Of a stretch of DNA of 45,482 nucleotides, positions 19,141 to 41,148 are shown in pieces. This DNA comes from a virus. The position numbers were made by a program, and so were the translations under genes. The stretch lies in IMG/VR virus record IMGVR_UViG_3300035698_007087, positions 1 to 45,482 of that record, one strand, 5' to 3'. Numbering within the stretch: the stretch's first letter is position 1; every line of letters begins with the position of its first letter. Below the pieces are notes generated by a model that saw nothing but the letters and a program-made list of their open reading frames with translations, had not been told where the DNA came from and did no database searches.

Positions 19141-19887
19141 TTATTTACCGCCCTTTAGCTGCCGTGTATCCCTATACCATTTACCGCACTCAGTACATTG
19201 GTAACGTTGATACTTACCAGCTTTAGTGTAGTATACCCCTCTCTTCTGTACCTTATGACTAGAGCATGAAGGACATACCTCTCTATCCCCTAGCATAGCT
19301 TGAGCTGATAAAGTACCTTCAACATATGGCATTAACTTCTTATAGACATTCTCTAACTCTAGTACATCCCTCTTACAGTACTTAACCATCTTCCTTAATG
19401 ACTTATCGTTACCTTTCATAACCTCTTTCCAGTCGTCAAAGGCCATATTATCCTTACCCTTACCGCCTAGGAACTTAGATATGTAGGCTAACTTATTACT
19501 ATTGAGATAAAACACCCGTCTAAGTGCTTTAAGTGTATCAAATTGATGTACATTCTTCAAAGGTGGTAGCTTATTCTTAAGTAACCTAGTGTTAATCCAT
19601 TTTAAATCAAATGCATCTCCGTTATGACCTACTGCACTATCGGCTTCATTGAATACTTTAGAAAATCTTATAAGTAACTCTCTATCCTTATCCTCACCTC
19701 GTGTGTTATCCCATTCCACACAGTGAACTTTAGATTCACCTAGCCACTTATAGGCTATGCAGATGATCTGACGTTCCTCTATTATATTCTCAGGACCTAT
19801 AGATATCTTATATCCAGATCTCCAGAAATACCCTATGTTAGGAGATGTTTCTATATCGAGTATTAAAACTTTACTCTTGGACTTCAT
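19141..19887 (-). CDS. DEDD 3'-5' exonuclease with C-terminal zinc ribbon
   Basis: 248 residues from the ATG best spaced from GGAG. Exo I 'VLILDIETSP' (Asp and Glu ligands near residues 11 and 13), exo II 'AVGHNGDAFDLKWI' near 95, and exo III 'MVKYCKRDVLELENVYKKL' near 175 give the metal-binding residues of the RNase H-like, YprB/PolB-type exonuclease fold. Residues about 208-240 add a zinc ribbon, 'CPSCSSHKVQKRG ... CTECGKWY'. The DNA polymerase here has its own exonuclease domain, so this enzyme may act in recombination, repair or host DNA degradation. Overlaps the ClpP-like gene by 17 bases. Confidence 0.8.
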   Translation of the reverse strand: MKSKSKVLILDIETSPNIGYFWRSGYKISIGPENIIEERQIICIAYKWLGESKVHCVEWDNTRGEDKDRELLIRFSKVFNEADSAVGHNGDAFDLKWINTRLLKNKLPPLKNVHQFDTLKALRRVFYLNSNKLAYISKFLGGKGKDNMAFDDWKEVMKGNDKSLRKMVKYCKRDVLELENVYKKLMPYVEGTLSAQAMLGDREVCPSCSSHKVQKRGVYYTKAGKYQRYQCTECGKWYRDTRQLKGGK

Positions 19888-20602
19888 CATCTTCTCCTAT
19901 AAAATCTTCCTTAGTTACAATCTCTATACTTTCCACTACTGCGCCCTCTTCTTGTTCTTCTTCGTCATCCTCTTCCTCTTCTGCCTTCTTCTTCTCTAAG
20001 TCTGCTAACTCTCCTAAGCTAACATATACATCTACTCCTTTTAATATATCACTTGCTTGCTCTAATGTCAATAGCCCTTTACTTACACACTCGTTAGTTA
20101 ACATATCACTATATAATTTATTATAAGCTTCTATATTACCAGTCATCTCGGATGATTTACCTTCCATAGCTGAAGAGAAGTGGTGGAACATTAAGAATGA
20201 ATAAGGGTGTACTATCAACTCATCTGATGCGCAGGCTATTAAAGCTGCCATAGAGTAGGTAGGTCCCTCTATCTCGGCTATTATAGTAGCTGAGCTAGCA
20301 TGCATAGAATTTATTATCTGAATACCTGTATCTAAGTCTCCTCCATGGTTAGCTATATGAAGTATTACTTTGTCATCCTCTGTAAGTAACTTTAATCCTC
20401 TAATAAAGTCTCTGTAATGATTCATTCCTATAATAGATTCTCCTAAGTATACATCATATACTGAATCACTTTTAATTATTGCATAAGCTTCTGTCTCTCC
20501 TAATGTAAATGGCTCAGTACCCTCGCTACTAACAAACTCTATGCTAATGAATGACCTTAGTTTATCTCGTAACAATTCTATAATATCAGTAAACTTACTC
20601 AT
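19871..20602 (-). CDS. ClpP-like cytoplasmic serine protease
   Basis: 243 residues without a signal peptide. The ClpP fold is marked by the glycine loop 'ILHIANHGGDLDTGIQIINSM' (about 80-100). The catalytic triad reads Ser117 ('EGPTYSMAALIA', ClpP A-A-S-M-G), His140 ('FLMFHHF', ClpP M-I-H-Q) and Asp191 ('GVDVYVSLGELADL', ClpP R-D-R-F-L-S). A very acidic C-terminal tail follows ('EEEEDDEEEQEEG'), absent from housekeeping ClpP (about 207 residues). It stands downstream of GroEL. A ClpX-like unfoldase is encoded at 28292, so an ATP-driven protease is plausible. A phage prohead protease is the other possibility, but the gene is not in the head operon. Confidence 0.8.
   Translation of the reverse strand: MSKFTDIIELLRDKLRSFISIEFVSSEGTEPFTLGETEAYAIIKSDSVYDVYLGESIIGMNHYRDFIRGLKLLTEDDKVILHIANHGGDLDTGIQIINSMHASSATIIAEIEGPTYSMAALIACASDELIVHPYSFLMFHHFSSAMEGKSSEMTGNIEAYNKLYSDMLTNECVSKGLLTLEQASDILKGVDVYVSLGELADLEKKKAEEEEDDEEEQEEGAVVESIEIVTKEDFIGEDDEVQE
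20043..20071 (-). promoter_or_regulatory. Sigma70-type promoter inside the ClpP-like gene
   Basis: On the minus strand: TTGACA (20066-20071), exactly 17 bp, TATATT (20043-20048). It would transcribe the 3'-5' exonuclease and the small genes after it. Being within a coding region it needs experimental support, but both boxes and spacing match the other promoters here. Confidence 0.55.
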
Positions 20603-20616
20603 TTAGTACCCCTCAG

Positions 20617-20946
20617 TTATCCCTCAAACCTTATCTTAGCCTCCTCAGCATCCTCTATTCTCTCATATGAGGCTACTTGTAGATTTTTATGTATATCTAG
20701 AACTACATAACGGATTTCTTCCATTTTTATGATCTGAAATACATTGCCACTTCTAGCCTCTAACTTATCTAATGAAATCCATTCACCATCTACTTTATAT
20801 GACTTAAAGTATTCCCTAGTCACTACATTAGCTCCACCTATAGGGTTAGCTAAGCCCAACCCTGTTATGTGTACATTCTCTTCTTCTCTAATATCCTCTA
20901 TAAAGTTACCACTAACTACATCACCTATATTGTATTCATTATTCAT
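20617..20946 (-). CDS. Unknown protein coupled to GroEL
   Basis: 109 residues, beta-rich and acidic, starting 'MNNEYNIGDVVSGNFIEDI', with 'GLGLANPIGGANVVTREYF' in the middle and an amphipathic end. Its ATG overlaps the GroEL stop codon (ATGA) and has AGGAG 8 bases upstream, so its synthesis is tied to GroEL. It does not read as GroES: the mobile loop is missing, and a true GroES-like gene is at 40867. A GroEL-partner or substrate-adaptor role is inference from coupling alone. Confidence 0.6.
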   Translation of the reverse strand: MNNEYNIGDVVSGNFIEDIREEENVHITGLGLANPIGGANVVTREYFKSYKVDGEWISLDKLEARSGNVFQIIKMEEIRYVVLDIHKNLQVASYERIEDAEEAKIRFEG

Positions 20947-22523
20947 TTAATATTCTCCTCGTTATCAATAGCTATTATACATCCAGTAGTTAGCATTAGT
21001 CCTACTACAGATACTGCATTCTGTAGAGCACTTCGGACTACTTTGGTGGGGTCAAGTACTCCCATCTTAACCATATCACCATACTTATCTGACTCAGCAT
21101 TGTACCCATAATTTAAGTTAGTCTTATTCTTAAGTAACTTAGCTATAACAATCTCCTCATTACCACCTGCATTAATTACAATTTGCTTTAGTGGATCACT
21201 CAATACACTCCTAATTAGCCTGGCGCCTTCAGAATCACCTTTCACTGCATTATATGACCTAAGCAATGCTATCCCACCACCTGGTACTACGCCTTCCTCT
21301 ACGGCTGCTTTGGTGGCATGTAGCGCATCCTCTACTCGTGCCTTCTTTTGTTCTAACTCTACCTCTGTAGCTGCACCTACTTTAATTATTGCTACACCTC
21401 CAGATAACTTAGCTGCCCTTTCCTTCATAAGGCGAACATTATGAGGTATAGTACCGTCCTTCTCTGCTTCGCTACGGATAGCTTCAACTCTAGCTTTAAT
21501 ATTTTTAATATCGCCAGCACCCTCAACTATTGTTGTACATTCACTGGTTATAGTAACTTTCTTAGCTGTACCTAGATCTTCAACAACAGTCTGCTCTAAG
21601 TGTTTACTAGAGCTGGATGTTAATACTTTACCACCTGTGAGAATTGCTATATCTTCTAATACATCTTTCATGTGAGTACCGAATCCTGGTGCTTTAACTA
21701 CACCTAATCTAAGTACTCCTTGAACGGCATTTACGTTTAATGTAGTTAACGCATCCCCATCTACTTCCTCAGCTATAAGTAATAGTGAACGTCCTTCACT
21801 TATAATCTTTTCTAGTATAGGTATTATATCCCTTATAAAGCTAAGCTTATGATCTATAATCATAATGTATGGATTATCTAATTCTACTGTCATATTAGAC
21901 TTGTTAGTTACAAAGTAAGGTGAGACATAGCCTCTATCGAACTGCATTCCTTCAACTACTACTAGCTCATCCTCTAACCCTGAACCATCTTCTATAGTTA
22001 TAACTCCTTCCTTTCCTACCTTCTCCATTGCATCTGCTAGCAAGTTACCTATTACTTCATCTGAATTAGCAGATATTGTACCTACCTGCTTAATAGCATT
22101 CTTTTCTCTACAAGGTGTTGACATCTTCCTAACGTTAGCTATTACTTCAGCAGCAGCTTTCTCTATCTCACTCTTAAGACCTACTGGATTAGCTCCTTCT
22201 TCAACTAATTCGTTACCTTTACGGTATAGTGAATAAGCTAATATAGTGGCCGTAGTAGTGCCGTCTCCTGTATCATCAGCTGTCCTTGCTGCTACACTCT
22301 TAACTAAGTCTGCACCTACATTATGTACATTATCTGTTAACATAATACTCTTAGCTACTGTCACCCCATCTTTAGTTATTAGTGGGTAGCCGTGCTCATT
22401 CTCTATCACTACGTTCCTTCCCTTAGGACCTAGTGTTAATCTTACTGCGTCAGCTAATAAAGTTACTCCTTCTAGTAAAGATTCACTTACTGCTGAGTCT
22501 AGTTGTATTAGTTTATTTCTCAT
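20943..22523 (-). CDS. groEL: GroEL-like chaperonin (Hsp60)
   Basis: 526 residues against 548 in E. coli GroEL. ATP-site motifs are intact: 'LTLGPKGRNVVI' (30-41), 'KDGVTVAKSI' with Asp52, 'GDGTTTAT' with Asp87, and the catalytic Asp398 equivalent in 'ARVEDALHATKAAVEEGVV', followed by 'GGGIALL'. The C-terminal equatorial block 'GVLDPTKVVRSALQNAVS' is conserved, but the flexible GGM tail is replaced by 'DNEENIK'. It should form a double-ring folding chamber in the host cytoplasm. It is flanked by two ClpP-family proteases and coupled to a small gene downstream. Chaperonins are known in a few large phages (phage EL) but are unusual at 45 kb. Confidence 0.95.
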   Translation of the reverse strand: MRNKLIQLDSAVSESLLEGVTLLADAVRLTLGPKGRNVVIENEHGYPLITKDGVTVAKSIMLTDNVHNVGADLVKSVAARTADDTGDGTTTATILAYSLYRKGNELVEEGANPVGLKSEIEKAAAEVIANVRKMSTPCREKNAIKQVGTISANSDEVIGNLLADAMEKVGKEGVITIEDGSGLEDELVVVEGMQFDRGYVSPYFVTNKSNMTVELDNPYIMIIDHKLSFIRDIIPILEKIISEGRSLLLIAEEVDGDALTTLNVNAVQGVLRLGVVKAPGFGTHMKDVLEDIAILTGGKVLTSSSSKHLEQTVVEDLGTAKKVTITSECTTIVEGAGDIKNIKARVEAIRSEAEKDGTIPHNVRLMKERAAKLSGGVAIIKVGAATEVELEQKKARVEDALHATKAAVEEGVVPGGGIALLRSYNAVKGDSEGARLIRSVLSDPLKQIVINAGGNEEIVIAKLLKNKTNLNYGYNAESDKYGDMVKMGVLDPTKVVRSALQNAVSVVGLMLTTGCIIAIDNEENIK

Positions 22524-22550: not shown

Positions 22551-23201
22551 CTACCATGAACCACATACCTTACTGCTTAACCGCTCATAGACTAACCTAC
22601 GTGGGTATACAATATCTCTACCTTCATAGTACCATTTCTTCTCAATCTTGGTTAAGAACTTACCAGCTGCTTTATTTAGTACACGTATGAAATATAAATC
22701 AGCTTCAGTTGAGCTCTTTGGTCTTAACCCTTTAAACTTAAGGTTATGACTTACAGGTCTATGGAACAAGTACAACGCTTTCGGCTTAGCCTTTATACAG
22801 TCCCCTGCTAAAGCTATCGGCATAGCACCTGATGCGGCCCAACCTATATTGTAAGTGACAACATACGCTTTACTACTCTTTATCTCATCTACAATAATAC
22901 CAGATAAGAATAATGAGCCACCACCACTGTTGATGAATATAGTTACCCTATCACCTTCCCTAGCTCTGTCTAGTGCGGTTAATAACTTATCAACCTTAGG
23001 ATTACGCTCGCTTATCACTCCATCAAAGTATATTGAAATATTAGTATAATTAGTCTTACCATAATCATAATCGTAACTACGACCACTGTAGGTATCTCCA
23101 ATCCTATTAGCTCCTGCATGAGCCCCTACAGACCAAGCAACTGTACATACAGTAATTGCTATCACTACAAATGTACTTTTTATTAATTTATCTATAAACA
23201 T
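22551..23201 (-). CDS. Exported ClpP-like serine protease
   Basis: 216 residues from the ATG at 23201, which has GAGGTGG just upstream; a start 27 bases earlier has no ribosome-binding site and would spoil the signal peptide. Residues 1-29 form a Sec signal (basic start, core 'STFVVIAITVCTVAWSVG', AHA cleavage motif). The mature part shows the ClpP fold: 'DRVTIFINSGGGSLFLSG', Ser124 in 'GWAASGAMPIALAG', His147 in 'LYLFHRPVS' and Asp196 in 'EGRDIVYPRRL'. It would act in the periplasm without an ATPase, perhaps on envelope or receptor proteins. Starts upstream of GroEL in the same operon. Confidence 0.8.
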   Translation of the reverse strand: MFIDKLIKSTFVVIAITVCTVAWSVGAHAGANRIGDTYSGRSYDYDYGKTNYTNISIYFDGVISERNPKVDKLLTALDRAREGDRVTIFINSGGGSLFLSGIIVDEIKSSKAYVVTYNIGWAASGAMPIALAGDCIKAKPKALYLFHRPVSHNLKFKGLRPKSSTEADLYFIRVLNKAAGKFLTKIEKKWYYEGRDIVYPRRLVYERLSSKVCGSW

Positions 23202-23234
23202 CTTACCACCTCTAACACTCTTGACCATACTATA

Positions 23235-28074: not shown

Positions 28075-28103
28075 TTGACTTTCATTTGATTCTATGCTAT
28101 AAT
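28075..28103 (+). promoter_or_regulatory. Near-consensus sigma70 promoter (extended -10)
   Basis: TTGACT at 28075-28080, 17 bp, perfect TATAAT at 28098-28103, with TG at 28095-28096 one base before the -10. It is among the strongest-looking promoters of the window and faces right into the control region, where it meets the opposing promoter at 28178. Confidence 0.85.
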
Positions 28104-28257: not shown

Positions 28258-28291
28258 ATAATAATGATGCAAGCTGAGAAGGATAACTATA

Positions 28292-29182
28292 ATGAATGAA
28301 GTATACGAGCAGATTTTAGAGCACCTAGATAGGCGTGTAGCAGGGCTGACTAAAGCTAAAGATAAGCTTGCTACATTAGGTCGTATGTATATAAAGAGAT
28401 GTCAGAGGACAGCTGAGGGTACTCCATTGAAGGATTTACCTAACCTTAACATGTTTTTAATAGGGCCAACAGGTACTGGTAAAACATTACTGGTAAAGAC
28501 TATGGCAGATTCGTTGTATGTACCCTTTATACGTGTAGATTGCTCTAGCTTAGCCCAGGTTGGCTGGTCTGGAACAGATATATCAGAACACCTAGCAAGA
28601 TTTACACCTAAACTAGATGAAGTAGGTTTCGGGGTCATTATGTTAGATGAGTTTGATAAATTAGGTAATAAGGTCGTATCGGAGAGTGGCAGCGTACCTT
28701 CACTAGGTATCCAACATAACTTACTTGACTTATTAGATGGTAGTTATGAGCATAAAGATGTATCAGACTGTATTAATAATTGCCTGGTACTATGCTCAGG
28801 TGCATTCTCAGAAGGTACAGAACATGCTAAGAAGGATAAGTCCAATATTGGGTTTATGGATCAACCAACTAATAAGGAACCGATGAAGTGGAAGAAAGTA
28901 ATGAAAGACTCAGGTATACTACCAGAGGTTGTAGGTAGAATACTTGATGTTATAGAAACTGAACCATTAAATAAGGAAGAGATTAGGGAGGTTATAGAAG
29001 ATAAGGAAGGAAGTATATTTAATAAATTTAAGAATCTATTTCCTGAATTAGAGCTATCTGACGAAGATATAGACACTCTTATTGAAATGACCTATGGAAG
29101 TGAATATGGGTTAAGAGAGTTAAATACAAGCATGTACAATGTGTTACATGATAAGTTAACTAAAGGTAACAAAGATGAGTAA
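28292..29182 (+). CDS. ClpX-like AAA+ unfoldase retaining the IGF ClpP-docking motif
   Basis: 296 residues; E. coli ClpX has 424, and the N-terminal zinc-binding domain is missing. Motifs in order: Walker A 'GPTGTGKT' (58-65), pore loop 'GWSG' (91-94, GYVG in ClpX), Walker B 'IMLDEFDK' (116-123), sensor 1 'LVLCSGAF' (165-172, ClpX F-I-C-G-G-A-F), 'IGF' (186-188), arginine finger Arg216 in 'LPEVVGR', sensor 2 Arg275 in 'YGLREL'. IGF is the loop by which ClpX, but not general AAA+ proteins, docks ClpP. It overlaps the endolysin gene by 8 bases and has its own promoter. Confidence 0.85.
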   Translation: MNEVYEQILEHLDRRVAGLTKAKDKLATLGRMYIKRCQRTAEGTPLKDLPNLNMFLIGPTGTGKTLLVKTMADSLYVPFIRVDCSSLAQVGWSGTDISEHLARFTPKLDEVGFGVIMLDEFDKLGNKVVSESGSVPSLGIQHNLLDLLDGSYEHKDVSDCINNCLVLCSGAFSEGTEHAKKDKSNIGFMDQPTNKEPMKWKKVMKDSGILPEVVGRILDVIETEPLNKEEIREVIEDKEGSIFNKFKNLFPELELSDEDIDTLIEMTYGSEYGLRELNTSMYNVLHDKLTKGNKDE

Positions 29183-29678
29183 GAAACATAATTTATTTAA
29201 ATCAAGAACAAGAATGGCTGATGCACATACAGTGATACTACATCATACTGGGGGAGGAACATTGAGGGGTGCTGAGGATACTTTAGTTAAGAAAGGCTTA
29301 GGGTACCATTACATGATAGATAAAGATGGTACTATTATAGAGTATGTACCACCAGATAGGTACTGTTCTCATGCATTTAGAAATAATACTGGTACTGTTG
29401 GAGTGTCCTTTGTAGGAGGTGGTAAGTATGGGCCAATGAGTGGTATTCAACTAGAAAGTATAGTTTATTTAATGAGACTACTTAAGGTAAACAGTGGTAT
29501 TACACACTTTACTGGTCATAAACATGTAGATCCTAGAGGGTGGAAGATAGATCCTAGATGGGAAGGTGAGCCACCTAATGGCATTGATTGGGATGTAGAT
29601 AGAGTTAAAATGGAGTATCTAGAATTAAGAACAGGATTAAAGGCTAAGTTTAAGGATAGTGTTAAGGGTAAGTATTAA
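29175..29678 (+). CDS. Endolysin, N-acetylmuramoyl-L-alanine amidase
   Basis: 167 residues of the amidase_2/PGRP fold, like T7 lysozyme (151). 'VILHHTGGGT' supplies the first zinc His (23 or 24), 'LGYHYMIDKDGTI' the conserved Tyr/His, and 'FTGHKHVDPRGWKIDP' the second His, Lys124 and Asp126. It cleaves the amide between MurNAc and L-Ala in peptidoglycan. No signal peptide, so release needs a holin (candidate at 30917). Translationally coupled to the ClpX-like gene. Confidence 0.85.
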   Translation: MSKKHNLFKSRTRMADAHTVILHHTGGGTLRGAEDTLVKKGLGYHYMIDKDGTIIEYVPPDRYCSHAFRNNTGTVGVSFVGGGKYGPMSGIQLESIVYLMRLLKVNSGITHFTGHKHVDPRGWKIDPRWEGEPPNGIDWDVDRVKMEYLELRTGLKAKFKDSVKGKY

Positions 29679-30451: not shown

Positions 30452-30898
30452 ATGACTGATGTGTATGTAATTGAAGAGGGGGACCCAAGAGGGTTCAGTA
30501 CAACTCCCTATGCTTATAGAGAGTTCCTTAAGCAAGAGAATTTAGGTGTATTTATATACGAGATATTAAGCACTATAGATGTGTTAGGCAGTACTTCAGA
30601 GGCCGAGGCTGTAGGTGAGGAGATAAGGATATCCATATTAGAGACACCACTACCTAGACCTCTAATAGAGGCTGTAGTAGCTGAATTTCTTAAGTTTGAT
30701 AGTACAACATTATTTGAGGTAAGCTCGTTAGGTGTTACAAATGTACCATTAGAGGTAAGGGGAATAGCTAACGTAATCACCGCAATTCATGAGGTGTTTG
30801 CCTCACTATGGAGTGATAAAGCTATACTATATAGAGAGCAGCAAGGCTTTGAGCATGAGACTGCTATAATATCAGCAATTATTAAAGAGAACCAGTAG
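30452..30898 (+). CDS. Hypothetical protein
   Basis: 148 residues, acidic and helical ('IRISILETPLPRPLIEAVVA', 'GIANVITAIHEVFASLWS'). GAGGG stands about 8 bases before the ATG. No known motif. Sits between the pentapeptide-repeat and holin genes. Confidence 0.6.
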   Translation: MTDVYVIEEGDPRGFSTTPYAYREFLKQENLGVFIYEILSTIDVLGSTSEAEAVGEEIRISILETPLPRPLIEAVVAEFLKFDSTTLFEVSSLGVTNVPLEVRGIANVITAIHEVFASLWSDKAILYREQQGFEHETAIISAIIKENQ

Positions 30899-40866: not shown

Positions 40867-41148
40867 ATGGCAAGACCAGCAGGACACAGGATCATGATAA
40901 GAGTTGATGATACTGAAGAGGTTACAAAAGGTGGAGTCGTTTTATCTAGTGAGACAGTTCTAAAGGAATCTAGAGCCATAGATAAAGGGGTAGTAGTAGC
41001 ATTAGGAGCTACAGCATACAAGGATTTTACTGGGGAGCCTTGGGTTAAGGTAGGCGACAAAGTATGGTTCAAGAAGTATGCAGGATTAAAAGTAGATGAC
41101 TGTAATGTCATAATAGAAGACGAAGATATATACGCCATAGAGGACTAA
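40867..41148 (+). CDS. groES: GroES-like co-chaperonin
   Basis: 93 residues against 97 in E. coli. 'HRIMIRVDDTEEVTKGGVVL' holds the start of the fold and the mobile loop (GGVVLSS, GroES GGIVLTG), which binds GroEL; 'KGVVVALGATAY' and 'VKVGDKVWFKKYAG' follow. GGAGG lies 8 bases before the ATG. Sits between portal and scaffold genes, so expressed with the capsid, while GroEL is in the early leftward operon. T4 gp31 is the classical phage co-chaperonin for capsid folding. Confidence 0.85.
   Translation: MARPAGHRIMIRVDDTEEVTKGGVVLSSETVLKESRAIDKGVVVALGATAYKDFTGEPWVKVGDKVWFKKYAGLKVDDCNVIIEDEDIYAIED

Follow-up and report, generated by a model that had tools for sequence, protein, structure and literature searches.

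A zinc-domain-free ClpX-like protein of an uncultured phage keeps the IGF loop and may dock on host ClpP

Results

The DNA analysed here, which we call the window, is the whole of the virus record IMGVR_UViG_3300035698_007087, which is 45,482 bp long and carries a 127-bp direct terminal repeat. The gene of interest encodes a ClpX-like AAA+ protein (Table 1) and lies ahead of lysis genes, an arrangement that is also found in several relatives; in several of these phages it comes after an exonuclease gene. A promoter-like sequence precedes the gene, and the regional count of promoter matches upstream of it does not exceed that in shuffled sequence. This 45-kb phage carries both a GroEL gene and a GroES-like gene; the GroES gene in the head block is common to the window phage and its relatives, and GroEL was found in the window phage alone among the 17 records searched. 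The window also contains three tandem pairs of similar genes (42410-43036/43038-43667 near the capsid gene, 13376-14689/14702-16012 in the tail region, and 4875-5138/5135-5443, the last encoding zinc-ribbon proteins). At 30452-30898 (+), adjoining a pentapeptide-repeat protein and a holin, a short protein corresponds to part of the PPDK ATP-binding domain only (E 3e-19).

Table 1. Positions of the genes and motifs discussed in the text, numbered along the window
Feature	Position	Strand	Remarks
ClpP-like protein 1	19871..20602	-	cytosolic; S-H-D triad intact; has lost the docking pocket and the axial N-terminal region
GroEL chaperonin	20943..22523	-	context gene
ClpP-like protein 2	22551..23228	-	N-terminal signal peptide or membrane anchor; near GroEL
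Sigma-70-like promoter TTGACT-17-TATAAT	28075..28103	+	upstream of the ClpX-like gene; consensus match only
ClpX-like AAA+ unfoldase (predicted)	28292..29182	+	296 aa; lacks zinc-binding domain and RKH loop
Walker A GPTGTGKT	28463..28486	+	residues 58-65; G58, G61, G63 and K64 invariant in the alignment
Pore-1 loop GWSG	28562..28573	+	residues 91-94
Walker B IMLDEFD	28637..28657	+	residues 116-122
Flexible loop bearing IGF	28835..28888	+	residues 182-199, linking helices 173-181 and 200-206; pLDDT about 58-67
IGF tripeptide, ClpP-docking motif	28847..28855	+	residues 186-188
Arginine finger R216 in GILPEVVGR	28937..28939	+	R216 invariant
Sensor-2 arginine R275	29114..29116	+	R275 invariant
Amidase endolysin	29175..29678	+	start overlaps the 3' end of the ClpX-like gene
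GroES-like co-chaperonin	40867..41148	+	context gene, within the head gene block

A phmmer search of the PDB returned ClpX first (E 5e-23), and the alignment with E. coli ClpX begins at the AAA+ module. The NCBIfam scores fall far below the equivalog cut-offs (PRK05342, 114.3 bits against 359; TIGR00382, 97 against 371), and the protein is therefore ClpX-like and not an orthologue by the NCBIfam standard. The Walker A, Walker B, R216 and R275 residues that are invariant over an alignment of phage and bacterial ClpX are all present, and the pore-1 loop reads GWSG where ClpX has GYVG, so that an aromatic residue is kept. An AlphaFold2 monomer model built from 39 aligned sequences has a mean pLDDT of 88.8. 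Comparison of this model with known structures by Foldseek and VIA-align placed ClpX chains from ClpXP complexes at the top (E 3e-18, Z 27, rmsd 2.7-3.6), with HslU below them (Z about 23). The structural superposition spans ClpX residues 63-391 only, and the N-terminal zinc domain is thus absent. Because an in-frame stop lies just 5' of the gene and the open frame begins at 28268, no in-frame zinc domain is hidden upstream. The RKH loop is likewise absent from the alignment, where its region is shortened in the window protein, and no HslU-type inserted I-domain was found between the AAA+ motifs of the 296-residue chain. The C terminus is charged (KGNKDE). The first-pass annotation, made from the DNA alone, had called the protein a ClpX-type unfoldase with complete AAA+ motifs and no zinc domain, and the translation, the alignment and the predicted fold agree with it on both counts.

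In the phmmer alignment, the IGF tripeptide falls unforced on the IGF of E. coli ClpX, which confirms its proposed position between sensor 1 and the arginine finger. Docking on ClpP is the known role of the IGF loop (PMC8745299, PMC9753991). Burial of the tripeptide and its loss from homologues had been named in advance as outcomes that would speak against docking; in the monomer model it sits in a predicted flexible loop, and it is kept in the closest group of relatives described below. The low-confidence stretch between two helices in which it lies is what a mobile docking loop would be expected to look like, and the model suggests no burial. Composition gives a probability of about 0.03 for an [ILVM]GF tripeptide anywhere in the 44-residue linker, so the motif by itself would be insufficient evidence; its exact placement at the ClpX position and its retention in five other divergent lineages argue that it is not there by chance. 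The loop after the tripeptide is shorter in the window protein (19 residues) than in the four ClpX proteins measured for comparison, two from bacteria and two from jumbo phages (27-29 residues).

Single-sequence searches of IMG/VR found no close relatives, the best among the matches listed being about 30-32% identical, and GTDB genome contigs gave only two matches (29-30%), both in Bacilli bins. Selection on the tripeptide is accordingly judged from distant relatives, the nearest at most about 32% identical, and several of the IMG/VR counts given here are samples and not censuses. In the initial IMG/VR sample of viral ClpX-like ORFs, most carry IGF, MGF, LGF, VGF or FGF at the docking position, nearly all fit [IMLVF]G[FY], and 139 have a GYVG pore; this first set of loci may include some bacterial contigs. 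Some "phage" records, L006 and L010 among them, have the gene order trigger factor-ClpP-ClpX, are probable bacterial contamination, and served in the comparison solely as examples of bacterial ClpX. One viral ClpX, encoded by a 773-aa ORF (L194/L339, IMGVR_UViG_3300036760_000306), is split at Walker A by an apparent intein.

The proteins most like that of the window form what we call the GWxG group, which among the matches listed comprises L177, L185, L188/L189, L193, L196 and the window protein. The window protein has the traits of the group: its pore is GWxG, it is missing both the zinc domain and the RKH loop, and it has [IML]GF at the docking position. In all six proteins (among the matches listed) these two elements are absent and [IML]GF is kept, with GW-G and GF invariant across them, even though their mutual identity is only 22-43% and the other members share only about 22-27% identity with the window protein. 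Four of the six have a spacing of 13/19 residues around the tripeptide; in the four bacterial and jumbo-phage proteins measured it is 15/27-29. The phages of the group also have genes in common with the window phage: a terminase (47%) and a portal protein (39%) in L193, and exonuclease, DUF4406/DUF1937 and DUF6899 genes in others.

Other phage lineages without a zinc domain have gone different ways. In phrog_5534 (HD01, S6, PM135, Philippe and others), the docking loop is cut to a short linker and the pore-1 motif is G-x-S/A-G, with no aromatic residue. In a second type, which we name SGYxGRS after its pore (12 loci among the matches listed, at least some of them near-copies), the loop is similarly cut and the pore tyrosine is kept. 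Conversely, L336, L337, L340 and L342 lack the zinc domain and the pore-1 aromatic residue (TSAVG, TSADG) and keep IGF. The loop is thus dispensable for the AAA+ fold, since two lineages have deleted it, and its retention in the GWxG group, where it could have been removed, argues for a docking function. In one tree, the window protein falls together with the GWxG group and with phrog_5534, apart from nearly all ordinary ClpX proteins (support 100/99). Membership of the window protein in phrog_5534 is excluded, as phrog_5534 forms its own clade with 100/100 support and the window protein outside it, and the window protein has IGF and not the GxSGNS pore. A single GWxG clade that includes the window protein was not rejected (p-AU 0.295); the branch to the window protein is very long, and its placement differed between two trees.

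The window phage encodes two ClpP-like proteins, the second of which is unmentioned in the first-pass annotation. ClpP-like protein 1 is related to the stand-alone ClpP found in T5-like phages (phrog_1827), and the alignment shows its catalytic Ser, His and Asp all in place. At the seven positions that we take to form the docking pocket of ClpP (Y60, Y62, F82, I90, M92, F112 and L114 in E. coli numbering), it has I, H, A, E, E, I and H. Five of these changes (Y62 to H, F82 to A, I90 to E, M92 to E, L114 to H) remove the hydrophobic pocket for IGF and leave two glutamates facing it. Nor could we recognise in the alignment the axial N-terminal region that true ClpP has. The pairing of the unfoldase with this protein, put forward in the first-pass annotation, finds no support here. 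A true ClpP is present in all six of the jumbo phages with an IGF-bearing ClpX that were checked; in these ClpPs Tyr62 is retained, and so for the most part are the Phe82 and Leu114 positions.

ClpP-like protein 2 has similar anchored counterparts in L177, L189 and L193, and is disfavoured as a partner by its N-terminal signal or anchor. If its positively charged N terminus stays inside, the protein would have its catalytic domain outside the cytoplasm. Anchored ClpP-like proteins stand beside a membrane protein in L177 (417-2068), L266 (3-1117) and L264 (10690-12800). This neighbour is SbmA/BacA-like by Pfam in L177 and by appearance in the other two, and the pair possibly forms a membrane module.

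Since the pocket of one phage ClpP is lost and the other is anchored, the phage's own ClpPs are poor candidates, which leaves host ClpP as the best candidate. From these comparisons, we give host ClpP about an even chance of being the partner of the ClpX-like protein. Three of the four contigs with IGF-bearing, zinc-less, aromatic-less proteins (L337, L340 and L342; 30-46 kb) have no ClpP gene, which fits host ClpP as the partner, although these contigs may be incomplete. We considered a rule by which IGF tracks a phage-encoded ClpP, and rejected it: a ClpP-family gene, possibly a head maturation protease, occurs in 8 of the 12 loop-less SGYxGRS contigs, and IGF-bearing proteins also occur without ClpP.

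Three of the GWxG relatives encode another kind of peptidase. A protein of about 200 aa, which we call an Ntn hydrolase, is encoded near the ClpX-like gene in L177 (7670-8284), L189 (7485-8096; also in L188) and L193 (10854-11528), and the two genes overlap in L193. It gave no Pfam match above cut-off, and its sequence profile matched nothing significantly in the PDB; only a Foldseek search with a predicted model (pLDDT 68) gave matches, to BPH and HslV, at E 1e-7 to 1e-5. Phage proteasome homologues PPH and AAH have already been published (PMC8665760). An M17 leucyl aminopeptidase is encoded in L189 (1023-1925) and in L193 (11806-12693), in the latter directly 3' of the Ntn hydrolase, which suggests that unfoldase, Ntn hydrolase and aminopeptidase form a phage-borne proteolysis set in these relatives. 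A search of the window phage found neither a proteasome-type peptidase nor an M17 aminopeptidase.

Discussion

The predicted properties of the window protein are best explained if it is a minimal phage ClpX, which would assemble into a hexameric AAA+ ATPase and work as an unfoldase and translocase. Such a protein would have shed the zinc and adaptor-binding domain and the RKH loop and changed its pore to GWSG while keeping the IGF loop, and this loop would most likely dock on host ClpP. Host ClpP would then be fed proteins that host ClpX would not pick, and the host adaptors would be sidestepped. We regard it as an even call whether a minimal phage ClpX docks on host ClpP through IGF and redirects ClpP to other substrates in this way. 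The grounds in hand are homology, the predicted fold, the motifs, the place and predicted flexibility of the loop, conservation of the tripeptide, and the loss of the pocket in ClpP-like protein 1. The contrast with phrog_5534, which has lost both the pore aromatic residue and the loop when the window protein has lost neither, also speaks for docking. Against docking on host ClpP stand the shortened loop after the tripeptide and the three relatives in which the proteasome-type peptidase could be the partner.

The alternative that weighs most is that the protein works without any protease, as a remodelling unfoldase that dismantles phage or host complexes, with IGF as a leftover. The superfamily includes two phage lineages that manage without the loop, most phages with phrog_5534 (7 of 8) have no ClpP, and roles in translocation or virion assembly have been proposed for phage ClpX in jumbo phages (PMC7824862). 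Yet the loop is readily lost elsewhere, whereas among the matches listed [IML]GF persists in each of the six GWxG proteins and in a further four zinc-less ones; on balance, we consider a stand-alone role possible but rather improbable. The phage might instead possess a self-contained ClpXP, in which the unfoldase docks on ClpP-like protein 1, perhaps by another surface. That peptidase is cytosolic and has an intact S-H-D triad, the jumbo phages checked have a ClpP of their own as well as an IGF-bearing ClpX, and the cytosolic peptidase slot is held in the relatives by the proteasome-type protein, as would fit a rule of one own peptidase per phage. What makes this arrangement unlikely is that ClpP-like protein 1 has neither the hydrophobic pocket residues nor the axial region, that its gene lies about 8 kb from the ClpX-like gene on the opposite strand, and that phrog_1827 occurs in T5-like phages, of which PM135, the one checked whole, has it alongside an AAA+ protein lacking IGF.

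The HslU protein has an inserted I-domain and lacks an IGF loop. It is relevant to a further proposal, in which the true partner in this lineage is the proteasome- or HslV-like Ntn hydrolase and the window phage has either lost that gene or uses host HslV. In its favour are the position of the gene near the unfoldase gene in three relatives, with an overlap in L193, and the predicted fold of its product, and several of the relatives' ClpX-like proteins end in short hydrophobic tails that are somewhat HslU-like. The window phage, however, has no such gene, its ClpX-like protein ends in charged residues, and IGF would go unexplained because HslU lacks the loop; we think this proposal very improbable.

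Docking on host ClpP thus remains our preferred reading, and it has wider consequences. Somewhat below even chance, in our judgement from the sequences, is the broader idea that a "delta-N ClpX" phage family, defined by a GWxG pore, the absence of the zinc domain and a retained loop, takes the place of host ClpX on host ClpP and reprograms proteolysis in the infected bacterium. If it is correct, the loss and retention of the loop among zinc-less phage ClpX-like proteins would be a natural record of the use of host ClpP. The comparison also yields a test set of proteins of the same fold, with and without the docking loop and with and without a phage peptidase, that would show why IGF is kept. 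Phages are known to redirect host proteases by other means: an SPO1 adaptor acts on host ClpCP (PMC6873191), and a phage ClpS has been proposed to feed host ClpAP (PMC7824862). Compared with such adaptors, a phage-encoded unfoldase docked on host ClpP would give the virus full choice of substrates.

Phage ClpX and phage ClpXP pairs have precedents: both proteins have been described from jumbo phages (PMC7824862), and adjacent ClpP-like and ClpX-like genes are annotated in Bacillus phage G. The rarity implied by the first-pass annotation was overstated, given this gene pair and how common phage ClpX with a docking loop is in IMG/VR. A limited literature search found no paper on phage ClpX without the zinc domain or on the docking loops of such proteins. 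Bacterial ClpX (TIGR00382/PRK05342) resembles the window protein in its AAA+ module, Walker A and B motifs, arginine finger, sensor 2, IGF position and fold (Z 27), and differs in having the zinc domain, the RKH loop, a longer loop after IGF and a pore other than GWSG, as the score of 114 bits against 359 also indicates. The jumbo-phage ClpX proteins (Bacillus phage G gp258, Agrobacterium phage Atu_ph07, Lak phages, Sinorhizobium phage Phosso, Salicola phage SCTP-2) are likewise phage encoded and carry a docking tripeptide, but they keep the zinc domain and a GY pore, and the true ClpP of their phages has largely kept its pocket. HslU shares the AAA+ fold (Z about 23) and matches the window protein less well in sequence than ClpX does. 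The AAA+ proteins of phrog_5534, from Schitoviridae and others (Acinetobacter phage HD01, Erwinia phage S6, Proteus phage PM135), are similarly small, ClpX-like and zinc-less, with a G-x-S-G pore, whereas they lack the IGF loop and the pore aromatic residue and form a separate supported clade. The GWxG proteins of uncultured phages share the pore, the domain losses and [IML]GF with the window protein, and their phages have terminase, portal, exonuclease or other genes in common with the window phage; they differ from it in their low identity (about 22-27%) and in the proteasome-type peptidase that three of these phages add.
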